From: Candidatus Cloacimonadota bacterium
Lineage (GTDB): Bacteria > Cloacimonadota > Cloacimonadia > Cloacimonadales > Cloacimonadaceae
Assembly (NCBI GenBank): GCA_017995495.1
Contig: JAGOIS010000004.1
Span: forward strand, 1-25,279
DNA length: 25,279 bases
Reading direction: 5' to 3'
In this document: one piece after another, positions 5,542 through 21,952 of the stretch
Numbering within the stretch: position 1 is the stretch's first letter
How the letters are laid out: the number at the start of each line of letters is the position of its first letter
Notes under the pieces: generated by a model
What the model saw: the letters and a program-made list of their open reading frames with translations, nothing else
Database searches by the model: none
Told to the model about the DNA's origin: nothing
Translations under genes and position numbers: made by a program

Positions 5542-6643
5542 CCTTGTTCTCCAGTTTATATTGGCCGAAACCGCCGGTGTCGGTGAACGTGAACTCCAGT
5601 TTCTGGCTGTAATAGGTCCAGACAATATAGGGGTACAGGTCCAGCGGATGCACTTCACTGTGAGTTTCATCCGGTTCGCCATATTTAATGTATATTCTAC
5701 CCCGGTCGGATTTCCAACCCTTCAATCTTTTGTGGATCGTGAAGCGTTCATCTGCAGTGATAACCCTCTGGTAGAAAGCCTCACGGGCCTCATTGCGCAA
5801 GGTTCCCGGGCTGGGATCGTGAACCTGCCAGAATTTCTCTATCACTTCGGGATACATGTCCTCCGGAATCGCCCGCAGGCTTTTCCATTCATTCTGACTG
5901 GCAATGTAGCGCAGCTGCTGGATCTGGTCCTGATAATCGTAGCGTGAGTTGTAGGCAAACCACTGGCTGTAGAGAAAGGGGTCCATGTCGTAGCGGATGT
6001 TTCCTTCAAAGATACTGACTCGCAGGCTGTCCAATGCGCCGGCGTTTGCCAGATCGGTCAGGTCCGCGTCATACTCACCCTGCGGGGACGCGAATTTGAT
6101 CTGGTCTGTGATCCCGGTGATGTGAACGCTGTCGGCCACCAGACTGAATTTTTGCCGGATCTGGCATTGTTCCACGGGGCGAGGCAGTTGCCGCAAAGAT
6201 CCGGGCTGGAAGGTGACGCCCTCTTTGCGGAGTATAAAATAGGGTTGGCCGATCTCGGTATAATTCTCCCCCACCACAAAGTTACGTTTCAGATCGATCT
6301 TGTCTCCCCCGCTCAGATTACGCAGGCGCAGCAAGGCCTGATAGCTGCCCGGACCGATATCGGAGCTGAAATGCACTGGCAGTGCGGTATTCTGCAGCCA
6401 GTCACGATTGGGCACCACAAAGCTCTCGTCGAAGCTCAGCGTCTTTTTGGTCCTGGTGTTTTTAAGCTCCATCACCAGTTGGTATTTGGATTCCGTCACG
6501 CCTTTTTTGAACACCAGCGTGTTGTAGGGGATCATCACCCAGAAATCCACCCCCTCCCGATAGTGCTCAAAGATCATCTCCTGGGCTGGCAAAACAGAGG
6601 CCAGGGCCAGGAAGATCAGCAGGATCTTATATGCTTTTCTCAT
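5528..6643 (-). CDS. Exported GWxTD-domain protein, first of a tandem pair
   Basis: Encodes 371 residues with a signal peptide (MRKAYKILLIFLALASVLPAQ). The family signature lies at about residues 309-325, GWKSDRGRIYIKYGEPDE, followed by the usual aromatic beta tail (YIVWTYYSQKLEFTFTDTGG). The segment before the signature is helical (ERFTIHKRL and QFLRYIASQNEW-like stretches), and the N-terminal half is strand-rich. The ATG at 6643 lies inside the last codons of dnaE (17-base overlap), with GAGG about ten bases upstream, so translation is probably coupled to dnaE. It is a paralogue of the next gene, sharing general layout and C-terminal domain though the N-terminal halves have diverged. Export to the periplasm or outer membrane is predicted; no catalytic motif was recognised and the function is unknown. 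Confidence 0.9.
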   Translation of the reverse strand: MRKAYKILLIFLALASVLPAQEMIFEHYREGVDFWVMIPYNTLVFKKGVTESKYQLVMELKNTRTKKTLSFDESFVVPNRDWLQNTALPVHFSSDIGPGSYQALLRLRNLSGGDKIDLKRNFVVGENYTEIGQPYFILRKEGVTFQPGSLRQLPRPVEQCQIRQKFSLVADSVHITGITDQIKFASPQGEYDADLTDLANAGALDSLRVSIFEGNIRYDMDPFLYSQWFAYNSRYDYQDQIQQLRYIASQNEWKSLRAIPEDMYPEVIEKFWQVHDPSPGTLRNEAREAFYQRVITADERFTIHKRLKGWKSDRGRIYIKYGEPDETHSEVHPLDLYPYIVWTYYSQKLEFTFTDTGGFGQYKLENKDEEY

Positions 6644-9600
6644 CGTAGCTGAACCTCAGCGTGAAATTGAACTGCTGTTCTTCCAGCCATTGCAGAAAGG
6701 CGTTGCCGGGAAACATCTTCCGTTGCGCCTCCAGCTGAAAACTGTCCCCGTCATCGGTGGTAACGCTGGTCCTGAGCACAAAACCGCCTCCCGCTTTATC
6801 CGTGTGGGAGGCATATTCATCCACAAACTCTTTTGATATGCGGGGCAAGGTGATATTGAGGCGGATCTCACCCCGCAGATACAGGGGCAGATCATCCAGC
6901 GGGACCAGATTGCTGGGGCTGACCCGGGGCATGCTGTCCTCAGCGCCGTTGTAACCGGATCTGGCCCCAAAGACAAAGAAGATGCTCCCCGTGGCCAGCT
7001 TGGCAAAATGCTTCTCGTAATCCTGGTTGAACAGCGCCACCTCAAAGCGTCCGCTGAGGTCCTCGAATTCCACCAAGGCATAGGGATTGCCTTTGTTGTC
7101 ACGCTTGCGGGAAATCCCGGAAACTATGCCGGCCAGCACCAGCTCTTTGCCGTTATGGCTCTTGATGTTTTGCGAGTTGGCGTTGGTGAGGTGCTTCACC
7201 AGGCTGCGGTATTCGTAAAGCGGATGCCCTCCCATATAGAATCCCAGCACCTCTTTTTCCCTTTCCAATTGATAGGCGTAGTTCCAGGGATCCTCCACCG
7301 GCAGGGGCGGATAATATTCTTCAGTCGAACCATCGGAGGCGATGATGTCAAACAGTGAGGTTTGGCCTATTTTCTTGTCTTTTTGGGCGCCGGCGTTGAA
7401 GGTAAGCGCCTGTTCGATCACGGCCCATTTTTGCGCCCGGCTGCCTTCCAGCTCATCCATCGCTCCGCTGGCGATCAGGCTTTCCAGCACGGTTTTGTTC
7501 ACCGCGTTGCTGTCCAGACGGCTGCAGAAATTGAAGATGCTGGTGTACGGTCCGGCTTTCTGCCGTTCCTCCACGACCGCGGCGATGGCGGCCTCGCCAA
7601 GATTCTTGATGGCTTTCAGGCCGAACATCACTTCCTTTCCGCGCACGCTGAATTCCTTGTCGCTGCGATTGATATTGGGAGGCAGGATCTTGATGCCCAT
7701 AGCCTTGCAGACCTCGATCTTGATCGGGATCTTGGCCGCATCATCCTCCAGCGAAAGCAGCGCCGCCATGAATTCCACCGGATAATGGGCTTTCAGCCAG
7801 GCCGTGCGGTAGGCCACCAGCGCGTAGCAGGTGGCGTGGCTCTTGTTGAAGGCATATTGCGCGAAATCAAGCCAGTCGTTCCAGATTTTGTCCGCCACGC
7901 GATCCTGCACCCCGTTTTCCAGGGCCCCGTTGGTGAACAGTTCCTTGAACTGCATCAGCATGTCCAGGCTCTTTTTGCTCATGGCCTTGCGCAGAGTGTC
8001 AGCCTGGCCCCGCGTGAATTTTGCCATCTCGATGGAGATCCGCATCACCTGTTCCTGATAGACCGTCACCCCATAGGTTTCTTTCAGGGTCTTTTCCATC
8101 ACGGGATGGTCGTAAGCCACCTTTTCCCGCTTGTGTTTGCGGGCGATGTAGTTGTCGATGAACTTCATAGGCCCCGGGCGGTACAGCGCCACCATCGCGA
8201 TCAGGTCCTCAAACATGTTTGGCTTCAGGTCCATCAGATATTTGCGCATGCCATCGCTTTCAAACTGGAAAACCCCGTCCGTATCCCCCTTGCTTAGCAA
8301 CTGGAAGACTTTTTTATCGGTCAGGTCCAGATTGTCGATATCCAGTTCCGTGCCGTGCGCTTCTCTCACCAGGTCCACCGTTTTCTGGATCAGGGTAAGG
8401 GTCTTCAGCCCCAGAATGTCCATTTTAAGGAACTTCAACTCGTCCAGCCAGCGGCCTTCATATTGCACCAGAATGTTTGTTTCAGCTTCCTTCTGGGTGC
8501 TGCGGGTGAGGGGGATGTATTCTTTCAGGTCGCCGGGCGCGATCACCAGTCCGGCCGCGTGGATGCCGGTTTGGCGGATCAGCCCTTCCAGCACGATGCT
8601 GTGTTTGTAGATACTCTGATAGAGTTCGTTATTGTCGATCAGGTGCCGGAAATCCGGCGAATCCTTGTAAGCTTCTTCCAGGTTTTTGTTAAAGGGGATG
8701 GTCTTGGTGATGTTGTTAGCTTCAGAAGCGGGCACCATCAGCACTCTGGCCACATCCTTGATCACCGATTTGGCGCCCAAGGTGCTGAAGGTGATGATCT
8801 GCGTAACGCTCTCCCGGCCGTATTTTTGGACAATGTAGTCAATCACGCGGCCGCGTTTTTGGGCGCAGAAATCGATGTCAAAATCCGGCATGCTGATACG
8901 GTCCGGATTGAGGAAACGCTCGAACAGCAGTCCGTAGCGGATCGGATCGATCTGGGTGATGTTGAGCAGGTAGGCCACTATGCTGCCGGCTCCGGAACCG
9001 CGGCCCGGTCCCACCGGCACCCCCTGTTTGCGGGCGTTGTCGATCAGGTCCTTCACCACCAGGTAATAACCGTCAAAACCCATACGGTGGATCACGTCCA
9101 GTTCAAAATCGATGCGGGCCCTGACCTCATCCCGCATCTCGGGATATTTTTGCCTGGCAGCCTCTTCGCAGAGCGCGCGCAGATAGCAGCCCATGTCCTC
9201 AAACTCAGGCGGTGTCTCGATCTCGGGCAGTAGAAACTCGTCGTATCTCAGTTCCAGATCGATCATATCAGCGATCTTCAGCGTGTTCGCGTAAGCTTGG
9301 GCCGCCTCGGGAAACAGGCTGCGCATTTCGTCTGGATCCTTGAAATAAAGCTGGTCTGTGTTGTACTTCATCCGGCCGGGATCGTTGAGAGTTTTGCCGG
9401 TTTGGATGCAGAGCAGGATGTCGTGGGCTTCGTGGTCTTCCTTGCGCAAATAGTGGCAGTCGTTGGTGAGCACCAGCTGCTGGCCCATTTCCTTGGCCAG
9501 TTTGATCAGAGCCGGCATCACGTCGCGCTCGATATCCAATCCGTGGTTCTGGATCTCTATGAAGTAGCGGTCTCCGAACACCCGCTGATACCAGCACACA

Positions 9601-10067
9601 GCTTCCCGGGCCTCCTCTTCGCGGCCGTTCGCCAGCAGCGAAGCTATTTCGCCTTTCACGCAAGCGCTGAGGCAGATCAAACCTTCGCTGTGTTTTTCCA
9701 GCAGGGATTTGCTGATCCTGGGTTTATAGTAGAATCCGTCGATAAAAGAAAGGGAGGACAGCATCATCAGGTTCTTGTAGCCGGTGAAATTTTGGGCCAG
9801 TAAAACGAGGTGGTAGCGCGTGTCGCTCTTGTTGTGTTCACTGTCCAGCTCGCCGTTGATGATGTAAGCCTCGGTGCCGATGATGGGTTTGAGGCCGGCT
9901 TTGCGGGCTTGTTTGTAAAAATCGATCACCCCGTACAGATTGCCGTGGTCGGTGATCGCCACTGCCGGCATACCGTATTCCTTGGCCAAAGCCACCATCC
10001 GGTCCACCCGGCAGGCGCCGTCCAACAAGCTGTACTGTGTGTGGTTATGCAAGTGCACAAATGACAT
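6627..10067 (-). CDS. dnaE: DNA polymerase III alpha subunit with intact PHP domain
   Basis: Encodes 1146 residues, the normal length for DnaE1. The N-terminal PHP domain keeps all the metal-ligand positions I can match to the Thermus type: H5/H7 (HLHNHTQYSLLDG), D16, D40-H41 (TDHGNLYG), E66 (GTEAY), H78 or H86, C136, and D203/H205 (TNDCHY). The polymerase core has GPGRGSGAGS (about 353-362), the catalytic PDFDIDF (394-400) and the third acidic residue D550 (KMDILGLKTL). These are followed by VYQEQVMR, FNKSHATCYALVAYRTAWLK and a C-terminal OB-like domain. The start at 10067 has GGGAGAG seven bases upstream and begins with the standard MSFVHLH; the frame is open to 10199 but that stretch is not conserved-looking. 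It heads an operon with two GWxTD genes. Confidence 0.97.
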   Translation of the reverse strand: MSFVHLHNHTQYSLLDGACRVDRMVALAKEYGMPAVAITDHGNLYGVIDFYKQARKAGLKPIIGTEAYIINGELDSEHNKSDTRYHLVLLAQNFTGYKNLMMLSSLSFIDGFYYKPRISKSLLEKHSEGLICLSACVKGEIASLLANGREEEAREAVCWYQRVFGDRYFIEIQNHGLDIERDVMPALIKLAKEMGQQLVLTNDCHYLRKEDHEAHDILLCIQTGKTLNDPGRMKYNTDQLYFKDPDEMRSLFPEAAQAYANTLKIADMIDLELRYDEFLLPEIETPPEFEDMGCYLRALCEEAARQKYPEMRDEVRARIDFELDVIHRMGFDGYYLVVKDLIDNARKQGVPVGPGRGSGAGSIVAYLLNITQIDPIRYGLLFERFLNPDRISMPDFDIDFCAQKRGRVIDYIVQKYGRESVTQIITFSTLGAKSVIKDVARVLMVPASEANNITKTIPFNKNLEEAYKDSPDFRHLIDNNELYQSIYKHSIVLEGLIRQTGIHAAGLVIAPGDLKEYIPLTRSTQKEAETNILVQYEGRWLDELKFLKMDILGLKTLTLIQKTVDLVREAHGTELDIDNLDLTDKKVFQLLSKGDTDGVFQFESDGMRKYLMDLKPNMFEDLIAMVALYRPGPMKFIDNYIARKHKREKVAYDHPVMEKTLKETYGVTVYQEQVMRISIEMAKFTRGQADTLRKAMSKKSLDMLMQFKELFTNGALENGVQDRVADKIWNDWLDFAQYAFNKSHATCYALVAYRTAWLKAHYPVEFMAALLSLEDDAAKIPIKIEVCKAMGIKILPPNINRSDKEFSVRGKEVMFGLKAIKNLGEAAIAAVVEERQKAGPYTSIFNFCSRLDSNAVNKTVLESLIASGAMDELEGSRAQKWAVIEQALTFNAGAQKDKKIGQTSLFDIIASDGSTEEYYPPLPVEDPWNYAYQLEREKEVLGFYMGGHPLYEYRSLVKHLTNANSQNIKSHNGKELVLAGIVSGISRKRDNKGNPYALVEFEDLSGRFEVALFNQDYEKHFAKLATGSIFFVFGARSGYNGAEDSMPRVSPSNLVPLDDLPLYLRGEIRLNITLPRISKEFVDEYASHTDKAGGGFVLRTSVTTDDGDSFQLEAQRKMFPGNAFLQWLEEQQFNFTLRFSYDEKSI

Positions 10068-10095
10068 CTCGGTCTCTCCCTTTGCTCTGAAAGCA

Positions 10096-10124
10096 TAGAT
10101 TTGAACCTGGCGGGTTTTTGTCAA
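10096..10124 (-). promoter_or_regulatory. Candidate dnaE promoter
   Basis: On the minus strand TTGACA (10124-10119) is followed after 17 bases by a weak -10 match, AATCTA (10101-10096), placing a start site about 20-25 bases before the dnaE ATG at 10067. The -35 box is perfect; the -10 box is poor. Confidence 0.3.
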
Positions 10125-10283
10125 AGGAATATTTGGAGGCCTGGCCAAGCCTCTGTGGGACAGCGAATCGCGCTGTTTATATGCAACCCTGCGGATCATC
10201 AGGTTGGATCCCTCGGCATTAAGCGTGGCAGAAATACAATTCCCCTCAAAAGATCTTTGTGTGTCGAATCCGTGAATCTCCAG

Positions 10284-10358
10284 CGATCAATACGGAATAA
10301 ATACGGAATCAATACGGATTTCATCCGTATTGATTCCGTATTTATTCCGTATTGATCG
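10284..10358. repeat. 75-bp palindrome: 36-bp perfect arms of 11-bp iterons
   Basis: The left arm 10284-10319 is the exact reverse complement of the right arm 10323-10358, with a three-base centre (TTC, 10320-10322). Four more flanking pairs (CCAG at 10280-10283 with CTGG at 10360-10363) form if one base is bulged. Each arm is made of three head-to-tail 11-base units of the form AT(C/A)AATACGGA, starting at 10286, 10297 and 10308, with the right arm holding three in the opposite orientation. A period of 11 bases is close to one helical turn. It sits between the divergent dnaE and rnfC genes. The first 21 bases of the iteron array recur exactly at 22734. It could be a dispersed repeat, a cruciform, an RNA hairpin or a multimeric binding site. 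Confidence 0.95.
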
Positions 10359-10616
10359 TCTGGGCCGGGCAGGAAGATCGTCTGCCGGATACATGGCTTT
10401 ATTATCCTGCGATGTGTAAGAATCTTCCTGACCTCGCGCGCGTACATTCTTGTTTGCTAACTTCGCGCCGGCGCGGGCCCAATGGAGACTTTTGCCAAGT
10501 GGGTATCCTATACCCCGAACGGAGCCAAAGAAAAAAAACCTTGCCTAAAAAACTCGTGCGCAATTTGTGGAACGCAAAAATGTTCCGGCTCGTGCAGAGC
10601 TATAATGGGAGCGTCA

Positions 10617-11939
10617 ATGAGGTTAAAAACCTTTCCCGGGGGAGTTCATCCCCACGATCACAAGCATTTTTCCGCCTCCGCCCCGATCGAGCAGATGCCT
10701 TTGCCCAAGCGGGTGGTGATATCCATGTCCCAGCATATCGGCGCGCCTTCTGTTCCAATCGTGAAAGTGGGCGACGAGGTCAGGACCGGGCAGAAGATCG
10801 CCGAAGGCGGAGGATTCGTCTCCATTCCCCAGCACGCCTCGATCAGCGGTAAAGTTACCAAAATCGACATTTTTCCGCATCCCGCAGGAGCCTCATCCCT
10901 GGCCATCGAGATCAGCGGAGACGGCTCGGACGACTGGATCGAACTGAGCGATGATCAGGACTTCATGGCTCTCTCAGCCGAGGAAATGAAGAACCGCATC
11001 GGCGAAGCCGGCATCTGCGGCATGGGCGGAGCGGGATTTCCAACCTTTGTGAAACTATCGCCCCCGGCGGACAAACCCATCGACACGGTGATCCTCAACG
11101 GGGTGGAGTGCGAACCATATCTGACCGCTGACGATCGCCTGATGCTGGAAAAGACCCAGGAAGTGGTGAGCGGTCTGAAGATTTTGATGAAGATCCTGAA
11201 CGCCAAACAAGGCCTGATCGGCATCGAAGCCAACAAGCCGGACGACATCGCCGCGATGAAAAAGATCCTGGCCTCCGAAAGCGGTTTCAGCGTGGTTCCC
11301 CTCAAGCTGCAATATCCGCAGGGAGCCGAAAAACAGCTTATCTATGCCGCAACGCGCAGAAAAGTGCCCGCCGGCGGACTTCCCATGGCTGTGGGCGTGG
11401 TGGTGCAAAACGTGGCCACCGCCTATGCCATTTACGAAGCTGTGCGTTTCAGGAAACCGCTTGTGGACAGGGTGATTTCAGTCACCGGAAGCATCGTAGC
11501 CCAGCCCAAAAACCTCAAAGCCCGCATCGGCACGCCCTTTTCCGAGCTTCTGGACTATTGTGGCGGCACCACCGCCGGGATCGGCAAGATCATTTCCGGC
11601 GGGCCTATGATGGGATTTGCCCTGCCGTCTCTGGACGCCCCGCTCGGCAAAGGAAGCTCCGGGTTGGTGCTGATGGGCGAAAAAGAAGCCTTGACCCTGG
11701 AGGAGCGAAATTGCCTGCGCTGCGCCCGCTGCGTGGATGTTTGCCCTATGAATCTGCTGCCAAGTTCGATTGCCCAGGCTGTGAAGGCAGGAGAAATGGA
11801 GATCGCGCTCAAGGCCGGGCTGGAAGACTGCATGAAATGCGGAAGCTGCGCCTACGTCTGCCCCGCGCATATCCGTCTTGTCCAGTGGATCGACACCGGC
11901 AAGATCCGCCATGCCGAAACCCTGCGCGGCAAGAAATAG
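10617..11939 (+). CDS. rnfC: Rnf complex subunit RnfC (NADH/FMN-binding, 2x[4Fe-4S])
   Basis: Encodes 440 residues. RnfC is the cytoplasmic NAD-binding subunit of the Rnf ferredoxin:NAD+ oxidoreductase, which pumps Na+ or H+. The N-terminal domain starts in standard form (MRLKTFPGGVHPHDHK, PLPKRVVISMSQHIGAP, VKVGDEVRTGQKI). The complex-I-51-kDa-like nucleotide domain follows, with GICGMGGAGFPTFVKL at about 132-147 and NGVECEPYLTADDRLM at 161-176. Two ferredoxin-type motifs close the protein: C366/C369/C372/C376 and C405/C408/C411/C415. The ATG at 10617 has GGGAG six bases upstream and matches the family start. The frame is open upstream to an ATG at 10482, adding 45 residues with five cysteines; that longer form lacks a ribosome site and its codons look unlike the rest of the gene. 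First gene of rnfCDGEAB. Confidence 0.96.
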   Translation: MRLKTFPGGVHPHDHKHFSASAPIEQMPLPKRVVISMSQHIGAPSVPIVKVGDEVRTGQKIAEGGGFVSIPQHASISGKVTKIDIFPHPAGASSLAIEISGDGSDDWIELSDDQDFMALSAEEMKNRIGEAGICGMGGAGFPTFVKLSPPADKPIDTVILNGVECEPYLTADDRLMLEKTQEVVSGLKILMKILNAKQGLIGIEANKPDDIAAMKKILASESGFSVVPLKLQYPQGAEKQLIYAATRRKVPAGGLPMAVGVVVQNVATAYAIYEAVRFRKPLVDRVISVTGSIVAQPKNLKARIGTPFSELLDYCGGTTAGIGKIISGGPMMGFALPSLDAPLGKGSSGLVLMGEKEALTLEERNCLRCARCVDVCPMNLLPSSIAQAVKAGEMEIALKAGLEDCMKCGSCAYVCPAHIRLVQWIDTGKIRHAETLRGKK

Positions 11940-20554: not shown

Positions 20555-21952
20555 ATGACAGAATTTAAGCACACCATCAAACAAGAGGTCACCTACACCG
20601 GCATCGGTTTGCATTCCGGAGAGATCTCCACCATCCGCTTCAAACCGGCCGGAAAGGATGAAGGCATTGTCTTCATCCGCATCGACCTGCCGGAAAAACC
20701 GGAGATCCTGGCTGACATCGACCACGTGGTGGATATCTCCCGCGGCACCACGATCGGCTTGAACGGCGTAACTGTTGGCACCATCGAGCACGTTCTGGCT
20801 GCCATCAAGGGCCTTACGATCGATAATATCCGCATCGAGATCGACGGCCCCGAAGTGCCGGTGGGAGACGGTTCGCCCCTGGTTTTTCTGAGGCTGCTGA
20901 AACAAGCCGGTTTTGAAGAGCAGGACGCCGAGCGGACTTATTTCGAATTTGATGAAGCCATCAGCTATTCCTGCCCGGAAGAGAATGTGGACGTGGTGGT
21001 GGTGCCCTCAAACGAGCTGAAAGTGACCTTCATGATCGACTACAAGCATCCCTATCTGAGCACCCAGTACACTTTTATGCCCCATATCCGGCACTTTGAG
21101 CGTGAATTCGCCGGTGCCCGCACTTTCTGCTTCATCAACGAGATCCTCAAACTCAAGGAGCAGGGCCTGATCAAAGGCGGCTCTCTGGACAATGCCCTGG
21201 TTATCGCCGAACCAAACATGAGCGAGTCCGAACTGGTGCATCTGCGCGAGGTTTTTGCCTATCACCAACCGATCACAGTTTCTCCCCTCGGCATCCTGAA
21301 CAGCCATCCCCTCAGATACAGCAATGAATTTGTGCGCCACAAGGTGGTGGACCTCATTGGCGACATCGCTCTGCTCGGAATGCCGATCCGGGGCCACATA
21401 CTCGCCGCCCGCAGCGGCCACAAAACCAATGTGGAGCTGGTGAAAAAACTCCGTCAGATCCAACTCACCCAGGCCTTGAAAAAGAAATACCAGAAAATAC
21501 ACACTGAGGATGTGGTGTTCGACACCAACGCCATCATGAGCATCATCCCCCACCGCTATCCCTTCCTGCTGTTGGACAGGATAATTGAGCTCAAGGCTGG
21601 CGAATCGATTGTCGGGATCAAGAATGTGACCATCAACGAACCATTTTTCCAGGGCCATTTCCCCGGACACCCAATCATGCCCGGAGTGCTTATCGTGGAA
21701 GGCATGGCTCAAACAGGCGGCATCATTTTGCTGCGCCAGATGGATGATCCGAAGGAGTGGGTGGCCTATTTTGCCTCCATCGACAATGTCAAGTTCCGCA
21801 AACCGGTTTTGCCCGGTGATACCCTGCGCTACGAACTGAGAGTGATCTCGCTCAAGCGCCACATGTCCAAGATGCACGGCGAAGCCTTCGTGGGCGATGA
21901 AAAAGTGGCTGAGGGCGATTTCCTGGCCTTGCTCCAAAAAAAGGAAAAATGA
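20555..21952 (+). CDS. lpxC/fabZ: LpxC-FabZ fusion: UDP-3-O-acyl-GlcNAc deacetylase / 3-hydroxyacyl-ACP dehydratase
   Basis: Encodes 465 residues in two enzyme domains. LpxC (about 1-310) catalyses the committed step of lipid A synthesis. It has the conserved E78-H79 (TIEHVLAA), ARTFCF at 188-193, SLDNALVI at 210-217, H262 and D266 (FVRHKVVDLIGD), and H289 (ARSGHKTN). These positions supply the zinc ligands and catalytic residues. FabZ (about 325-465) has HRYPFLLLDRI at 333-343 and GHFPGHPIMPGVLIVEGMAQ at 367-386, with H368 and E382 the catalytic pair. Fused LpxC-FabZ is known from Bacteroidetes, Chlorobi, Cloacimonadota and relatives. The stop shares ATGA with lpxA (21949-21952). The fusion fixes a 1:1 ratio of the two activities, which compete for the hydroxyacyl pool. 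Confidence 0.97.
   Translation: MTEFKHTIKQEVTYTGIGLHSGEISTIRFKPAGKDEGIVFIRIDLPEKPEILADIDHVVDISRGTTIGLNGVTVGTIEHVLAAIKGLTIDNIRIEIDGPEVPVGDGSPLVFLRLLKQAGFEEQDAERTYFEFDEAISYSCPEENVDVVVVPSNELKVTFMIDYKHPYLSTQYTFMPHIRHFEREFAGARTFCFINEILKLKEQGLIKGGSLDNALVIAEPNMSESELVHLREVFAYHQPITVSPLGILNSHPLRYSNEFVRHKVVDLIGDIALLGMPIRGHILAARSGHKTNVELVKKLRQIQLTQALKKKYQKIHTEDVVFDTNAIMSIIPHRYPFLLLDRIIELKAGESIVGIKNVTINEPFFQGHFPGHPIMPGVLIVEGMAQTGGIILLRQMDDPKEWVAYFASIDNVKFRKPVLPGDTLRYELRVISLKRHMSKMHGEAFVGDEKVAEGDFLALLQKKEK

Follow-up and report, generated by a model that had tools for sequence, protein, structure and literature searches.

The window (the whole 25,279 bp stretch of Candidatus Cloacimonadota DNA analyzed here) contains the divergently transcribed genes dnaE and rnfC, separated by a 550 bp gap that extends from the dnaE start at 10067 (minus strand) to the rnfC ATG at 10617 (plus strand). 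A palindrome scan places a 75 bp perfect inverted repeat within this gap at positions 10284–10358, with two 36 bp arms flanking a TTC center. Each arm at this locus consists of ATCAATACGGA-ATAAATACGGA-ATCAATACGGA-T plus an outer CG, and the exact 36 bp arms, three-base center and three 11 bp units per arm described in the initial annotation are thus confirmed. The features of the region are as follows; the two genes were recognized by their Pfam domains, with starts taken from a codon-usage gene finder made for this analysis.

6627–10067, minus strand: dnaE (DNA polymerase III alpha), a neighbor whose start lies 218 bp from the core (Pfam, gene model).
10278–10285, plus strand: left outer flank CTCCAGCG, a variant of the family outer arm (G)GCTCC-nnnn (copy listing, position counts).
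10284–10358, no strand assigned: full perfect inverted repeat of the dnaE-rnfC copy, with 36 bp arms (palindrome scan).
10286–10356, no strand assigned: 71 bp core of a dispersed element, two 34 bp perfect arms plus a TTC loop (sequence; the same 71 bp in 27 of 41 copies in the genome).
10286–10296, plus strand: 11 bp unit 1 of the left arm, ATCAATACGGA (sequence).
10297–10307, plus strand: 11 bp unit 2 of the left arm, ATAAATACGGA (sequence).
10308–10318, plus strand: 11 bp unit 3 of the left arm, ATCAATACGGA (sequence).
10320–10322, plus strand: TTC loop, which orients the palindrome (TTC in all 41 copies listed for the 21 bp center).
10323–10356, minus strand: right arm with three units, the reverse complement of the left arm (sequence).
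10357–10364, plus strand: right outer flank CGTCTGGG, corresponding to nnnn-GGAGC(C) in decayed form (copy listing, position counts).
10617–11939, plus strand: rnfC, a neighbor whose start lies 260 bp from the core (Pfam, gene model).

Separately from the palindrome, a conserved block of the form TTGCCTAAA...GGAACGCAAAAATGTT..GGCTCG..AGAGC..GGGAGCGTCAATG is present upstream of rnfC at 10540–10620 of the window and in several relatives, and is possibly a promoter and leader structure.

The dnaE-rnfC palindrome has a computed single-stranded DNA fold of -45 kcal/mol, far below that of 200 dinucleotide shuffles (z of -14.2 and -16.5 for the two strands), and three fragments of this sequence type fold at -45 to -53 kcal/mol (also computed as single-stranded DNA), in support of the strong hairpin suggested at the outset. 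Such a hairpin could form in any transcript crossing this copy. An intrinsic terminator is rejected, in agreement with the initial annotation: there are no terminator-like sites in window positions 10060–10640, and a G+C-rich stem followed by a T-run is lacking. A known RNA family is likewise rejected, as no Rfam family reaches its gathering score and the top matches, to microRNA hairpin models, reach 42.6 bits where the gathering score is 83.

A search of the genome and its relatives for the 11-base unit, which the initial annotation had recommended, reveals that the palindrome belongs to a dispersed family. The window's metagenome-assembled genome (MAG), referred to here as G000 (1,493,285 bases, 71% complete), contains 41 copies of the 21 bp center, 38 of them with no mismatches and three with 1–2 mismatches outside the TTC loop. 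The 11-mer AATACGGAATM occurs 144 times in G000 and its reversed control not once, which puts the palindrome far beyond chance. When up to two mismatches to the 21 bp center are permitted there are 60 copies in G003, 57 in G011, 56 in G033, 36 in G009 and 11 in G018, with none for the reversed control in each; three genomes of the same genus have 36–60 copies of their own versions, and several others of that genus have no match at this threshold. G003 has 118 places at up to three mismatches, and 57 of one exact central type. Across the phylum, 27 of 124 genomes match at up to two mismatches (the reversed control gives single matches in five genomes), and the 11 with at least four copies (G000, G003, G007, G009, G011, G018, G020, G029, G033, G060 and G063) all belong to the window's family. 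An exact-pattern search of 84,980 species genomes, from which the window's own genome was possibly left out, matched named MAGs in two cases only, JAJBBF01 (57 stretches) and JAKQNV01 (12), each of them from Candidatus Cloacimonadota. The exact pattern has no matches in viral contigs, the element has no blastn match in plasmids, and it is not described in any of the titles or abstract openings returned by a literature search that reached few subscription journals or preprints.

These copies also bear on whether the palindrome could be an assembly or foldback artifact, for which the only hint is that a number of copies lie about 200 bp or less from contig ends. Such an artifact is untenable given 41 differently flanked copies in one MAG and independent MAGs carrying their own versions, and the flanks of some orthologous sites align right up to the element; we assign it a negligible probability. 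The initial annotation had counted absence at this locus in close relatives, together with evidence of a foldback artifact, as refuting its observation; since dnaE was found within reach of rnfC in some relatives only, such absence does not point to an artifact. The family is a dispersed hairpin repeat of the Cloacimonadota, neither an artifact nor, on the evidence, a local operator.

In its full form the element reads (G)GCTCC – four variable bases – 34 bp arm – TTC – 34 bp arm – four variable bases – GGAGC(C), with a 71 bp core and a length of up to 93 bp when the outer arms are included. The number of units varies occasionally (loci L062 and L069), and there is a four-unit form in G016. The flanking 4-mers are drawn from a small set that is alike on the left and right sides, the common ones being GGCG, CGCG and CATT in G000, CAAT in G003, and CATT, CAGC, CAGT and TGCG in JAJBBF01; neither GTAG nor CGTC is among the ten commonest on either side in each copy set. 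The left and right 4-mers of a copy agree in 7 of 39, 35 of 58, 8 of 56 and 1 of 12 cases in the four copy sets, near the shuffle means, which fits a reassortment of flanks without proving it.

None of 168 copies lies within a gene predicted by our own gene finder, and the 126 copies with both neighbors visible occupy 61 tandem, 38 convergent and 27 divergent gaps. The two largest clusters of neighboring genes resemble long secreted proteins and protein kinases (judged by eye, not against a family library). One explanation is that the element works mainly as RNA, as a very stable stem at transcript ends (an mRNA stabilizer, an RNase III site or an unusual bidirectional terminator) kept by selection. 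The very stable computed folds are consistent with this, as are the convergent copies and the closer spacing to gene ends (median 109 bp) than to gene starts (207 bp). However, the divergent gaps include that of dnaE-rnfC, where there is no terminator-like T-run, no Rfam family was recovered at gathering score, and a role as RNA leaves the in-step sequence change between species (see below) unexplained. We therefore regard it as improbable.

The initial annotation also proposed a locus-specific operator setting the output of dnaE or Rnf. The location between two divergent starts favors an operator or attenuator of this kind, as does the fact that G008 and G005 each have an iteron palindrome, of different sequence, upstream of dnaE; three unit sequences are represented relative to the dnaE match (-291 to -217 in G000, -317 to -271 in G008 and -348 to -281 in G005). 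G003 has an element 1.3 kb upstream of its dnaE match. A scan of the 1.5 kb preceding dnaE in G002, G004, G001, G010 and G012, and of the 0.86 kb seen for G006, found no palindrome (arm score of at least 11). The proposal is nonetheless not sustained. The same element is present at 40 other G000 places, in convergent, tandem and divergent gaps; no palindrome (arm score of at least 16) is present in the rnfC loci of G003, G011, G002, G001, G004, G005, G010 and G012; the palindromes in the rnfC loci of G007 and G008 are other elements; and nothing tested ties the element to either operon. A local operator is thus highly unlikely, and the dnaE-rnfC copy probably serves neither dnaE nor rnf in a dedicated way.

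It is apparent that many of the sites are shared between species. Using a threshold of at least 150 bits and an offset of no more than 160 bp, strong orthologous partners were identified for 21 of 41 G000 copies among the 58 in G003, for 22 of 58 G003 copies in JAJBBF01, and for 10 of 41 G000 copies in JAJBBF01. (A looser earlier count of 24 of 41, 31 of 58 and 16 of 41 took in apparent paralogous matches to C-terminal domains, and the criteria were then tightened.) The pairs are mostly one-sided, with matches on both sides in 1 of 23 for G000-G003, 4 of 22 for G003-JAJBBF01 and none of 10 for G000-JAJBBF01. Nine groups of orthologous sites were aligned and have homologous flanks, in some reaching the element edge. 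On the orthologous side of the neighboring gene, an element was present in 23 of the 39 tests made over 758 kb of G003. The figure was 3 of 22 (P = 0.001) for long gaps lacking an element in the query, and 14 of 117 (P = 2e-8) when non-element gaps of all lengths are counted. The elements are not evident as synteny breakpoints, the neighbor being conserved across 18 of 39 element gaps and 15 of 22 other long gaps (P = 0.12). Eight sites are resolved on both flanks, and at these G003 has the element at five, a decayed copy at one and none at two; in the last two the intergenic DNA has diverged so far that a junction is no longer discernible. Neither a clean empty site nor a target duplication was seen among these eight sites. 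The shared positions fit poorly with frequent transposition.

Between G000 and G003 an ortholog pair differs at 5.39 positions per 71 bp core and any cross-species pair at 5.13, yet copies within a species differ at only 1.55. Over the three species comparisons, the own-species distance is smaller than the ortholog distance in 21 of 23, 10 of 10 and 22 of 22 pairs. Copies at orthologous sites are therefore as different as any cross-species pair and alike within a species, and so evolve in concert within each species while many sites stay shared. The orientation of the loop at orthologous sites is kept in 34 cases and flipped in 19. Recent duplication, gene conversion or selection had been raised to account for the lack of drift between the arms, and the homogenization seen here supports that suggestion. 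The elements offer a clean natural example of short dispersed bacterial repeats evolving in concert, in which many sites are common to species with RnfC proteins 88–89% identical to that of the window and the copies are nearly identical within each genome.

The 11 bp period is a property of the family at large. In stretches of 18 genomes, 11 is the best internal period for 45 palindromes (match of at least 0.6, a cut-off of our own choosing), and there are 22 others, seven of which have a period with a rounded match of at least 0.6, one of them a borderline 11. The strongly periodic palindromes thus number 45 with period 11 and seven otherwise, or 20 and one when G003 is excluded, and the 11 bp units first noted at dnaE-rnfC are borne out. 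Other family members have palindromes with the same period and different unit sequences, such as TCATCCTTAGG in G008, TTAATCAAGCC and GTCATTGCGCG in G005, CATTGCTTACC in G021 and GCATTACGGTA in G016; there are, then, species-specific dialects of the 11 bp unit.

One interpretation is that the copies serve a co-evolving DNA-binding protein (a chromosome organizer, nucleoid protein or global regulator) as binding sites, with six 11 bp units on approximately one helix face loading a multimer and the dialects following changes in specificity. The predominance of period 11 (45 of 52 strongly periodic palindromes), the sharing of positions between species and the three different iteron palindromes that G000, G008 and G005 have 200–350 bp upstream of the dnaE match are all in accord with this. 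Changes relative to the consensus are also more often in both arms (15) than in one (8) in G000. However, there are several reasons to consider binding-site selection a rather unlikely explanation. First, 27 of 41 copies are identical over 71 bp including the loop, which exceeds the usual need of selection for binding. Second, a single central one-arm mismatch is common to 36 of 58 G003 copies, which looks like copying and not selection for a symmetric site. Third, no regulator stood out by eye among the 22 largest neighbor clusters. Finally, there are the same-genus genomes that lack a match to the center. Selection of binding sites can add to copying but explains the asymmetry poorly.

Near-identity over 71 bp, the asymmetric mismatch that copies have in common and the coordinated sequence change at shared sites together point to copying onto resident sites, by gene conversion or targeted re-insertion. 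We therefore consider it reasonably probable that the dnaE-rnfC palindrome represents one member of a dispersed family of non-autonomous, REP/REPIN-like hairpin repeats in the Cloacimonadota, which have arms of tandem 11 bp units and are copied or homogenized in place. The excess of one-arm over two-arm changes in G003 (43 and 15) and JAJBBF01 (37 and 13) counts against this reading. The copying process would act on a folded single strand or cruciform with a stem of about 34 bp, a 3 nt loop, a 4 nt variable foot and an outer GGCTCC/GGAGCC clamp, and ectopic gene conversion or re-targeting onto resident copies may then overwrite the old copies in place. Gene conversion was reportedly proposed for REPs by Higgins in 1988. 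The old question of whether REP-like repeats are kept alike by transposition, gene conversion or selection by a binder becomes testable with these elements.

A candidate for the enzyme involved is provided by Y1_Tnp (PF01797) genes, which are present in 36 of 49 genomes of the family. The two members that were scored are of the IS200/IS605 type (NF033573) and fall far short of the RAYT cut-off, and one of these two matches solved IS200-type transposases; a search of a defence library with one Y1 protein gave no match. Among 20 Y1 proteins, DH[IVL]H and WQ are each present in 19 and Y---Q--HH in 17, the three without the latter being broken or cut. The Y---Q--HH motif is the signature given for TnpA-Y1 subclass 1.2 in the portions of Quentin et al. 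(2018, PMC6006769) drawn on here. An iteron palindrome lies within 1.5 kb at 7 of the 20 Y1 loci examined, a subset of the listed Y1 places, where 1.8–2.5 are expected (P = 0.002–0.014), and in the relatives G007, G009 and G011 it is found within about 30–260 bases downstream of the Y1 gene, that of G009 being of another unit type. A Y1 gene is present in all 11 genomes with at least four copies and in 25 of 38 others (P = 0.02, a statistic that ignores phylogeny). Excluding G003, there are two iteron palindromes in 478 kb of genomes lacking Y1 and 18 in 625 kb of those bearing it (P = 0.0015); counted per genome, they occur in 2 of 8 and 6 of 9 respectively, which is not significant (P = 0.15) and again ignores phylogeny. 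Against a link, several of the Y1 genes are bordered by short hairpin arrays of their own, and in the set of 168 copies a main-cluster Y1 gene lies within 1.5 kb of only one G003 and one JAJBBF01 copy (the other main-cluster members in the neighbor clustering are loci that we added to that set). The subclass-1.2-like Y1 (HUH) transposases are the best candidate enzyme, the link being circumstantial; more tentatively, such a transposase might cut and join the foot of the element, which would make the element a candidate substrate for these poorly understood enzymes.

The hairpin units around subclass-1.2-like Y1 genes are of the GTCCC..GGGAC type followed by TTTAGATA (loci L172, L174, L175, L180 and L184). 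There are none in the G003 stretches (758 kb) or the G000 loci (123 kb), and two in one JAJBBF01 locus holding such a Y1 gene; these arrays look local, not dispersed.

A class-2 RAYT was also considered as the partner. RAYT genes on contigs C2 of G003 and C54 of G011 have an element about 275 and 330 bp downstream, respectively, and appeared promising, but an iteron palindrome was found at just these 2 of 30 class-2 RAYT loci (the G011 gene being the 98% identical relative of that in G003), with 3 expected, and this candidate was rejected. Outside these 30 loci, a RAYT gene on contig C45 of G020 has an element 650 bp away. The class-2 RAYT profile NF047646 scores above cut-off for G003 and below it for G020. 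The 98% identity of the RAYT-like protein encoded at G003:C2:78045-78674 and G011:C54:1465-2094, in two genomes with RnfC proteins 89% and 88% identical to that of the window, may reflect recent transfer or strong constraint.

The elements share several attributes with REP, BIME and REPIN sequences and their TnpA-REP (RAYT) genes, including high-copy intergenic hairpin repeats (41 copies in G000, all 168 mapped copies outside predicted genes), species-specific families and the co-occurrence of Y1 HUH genes. For REPINs, PMC3116915 describes hairpins in which changes across the arms compensate each other; in the present element two-arm changes predominate in G000 (15 and 8), where 36 of 40 copies have no arm mismatches, but one-arm changes predominate in G003 and JAJBBF01 and, at 22 and 1, in JAKQNV01. 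There are also clear differences. At 71–93 bp the element is longer than the 20–40 bp given for REPs in the sections of PMC3733652 used here; its arms are tandem 11 bp iterons; and many positions are common to species with the sequence rewritten in place. The same sections sort most REPs by a GTAG or CGTC foot, neither of which is among the common flanks, and the element is therefore classed as REP-like and not as a REP. In contrast to REPtrons, class-2 RAYT genes are not enriched beside it. The relevant portions of Quentin et al. (2018, PMC6006769) list TnpA-Y1 subclass 1.2 without REP and in Cyanobacteria and Bacteroidetes, whereas the Y1 proteins carrying its signature here are from Cloacimonadota, where some of the genes are accompanied by short hairpin arrays and some lie close to iteron palindromes. 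MITEs and TIRtrons are likewise short palindromic non-autonomous repeats, and TIRtrons pair such repeats with Y1 genes according to the sections of PMC3733652 used here; however, no target duplication was seen for the present element at junctions that are not resolvable, and no autonomous parent with the same ends was found.

There are also parallels with two other systems. The iteron arrays of plasmid replication and partition sites have 11 bp direct units in approximately helical register, as does the element, but the latter occurs as dispersed chromosomal copies in inverted pairs, and neither a Rep or Par gene nor a recombinase was seen by eye among the 22 largest neighbor clusters. DNA uptake sequences similarly have species dialects and inverted unit pairs between genes, but are present in thousands of copies and not tens, and the 11-mers here are grouped within palindromes among the matches listed, except for two on contig C82.

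A more far-reaching proposal, which we offer tentatively as a possibility and not an expectation, is that these are a new class of chromosomal element, namely iteron palindromes at fixed intergenic sites whose 71 bp text is overwritten in place by homing-like copying. All of the copies would shift jointly to a new 11 bp dialect, probably through an HUH (subclass-1.2 Y1) enzyme that recognizes the 11 bp repeated hairpin, with the resident copies as its targets.

Two further observations were made. First, an IS-end-like motif, GTCCTAAAA(A/T)AGTTGA, is present just outside the outer arm in ten cases among the 168 copies, representing three species (L012 in G000; L064, L069, L225, L231, L252, L261 and L270 in G003; L073 and L135 in JAKQNV01). 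It lies 17 bp from the core edge in nine of the ten, and the tenth (L069, at 6 bp) fits, as its right arm lacks one 11 bp unit. Several of the contigs with this motif terminate nearby. The elements resemble hot spots at which IS insertion is precisely placed; they may mark such hot spots and explain some contig breaks in Cloacimonadota MAGs. Second, elsewhere in the window (20555–21952) there is an LpxC-FabZ type fusion gene, with an LpxC and a FabA-like domain.
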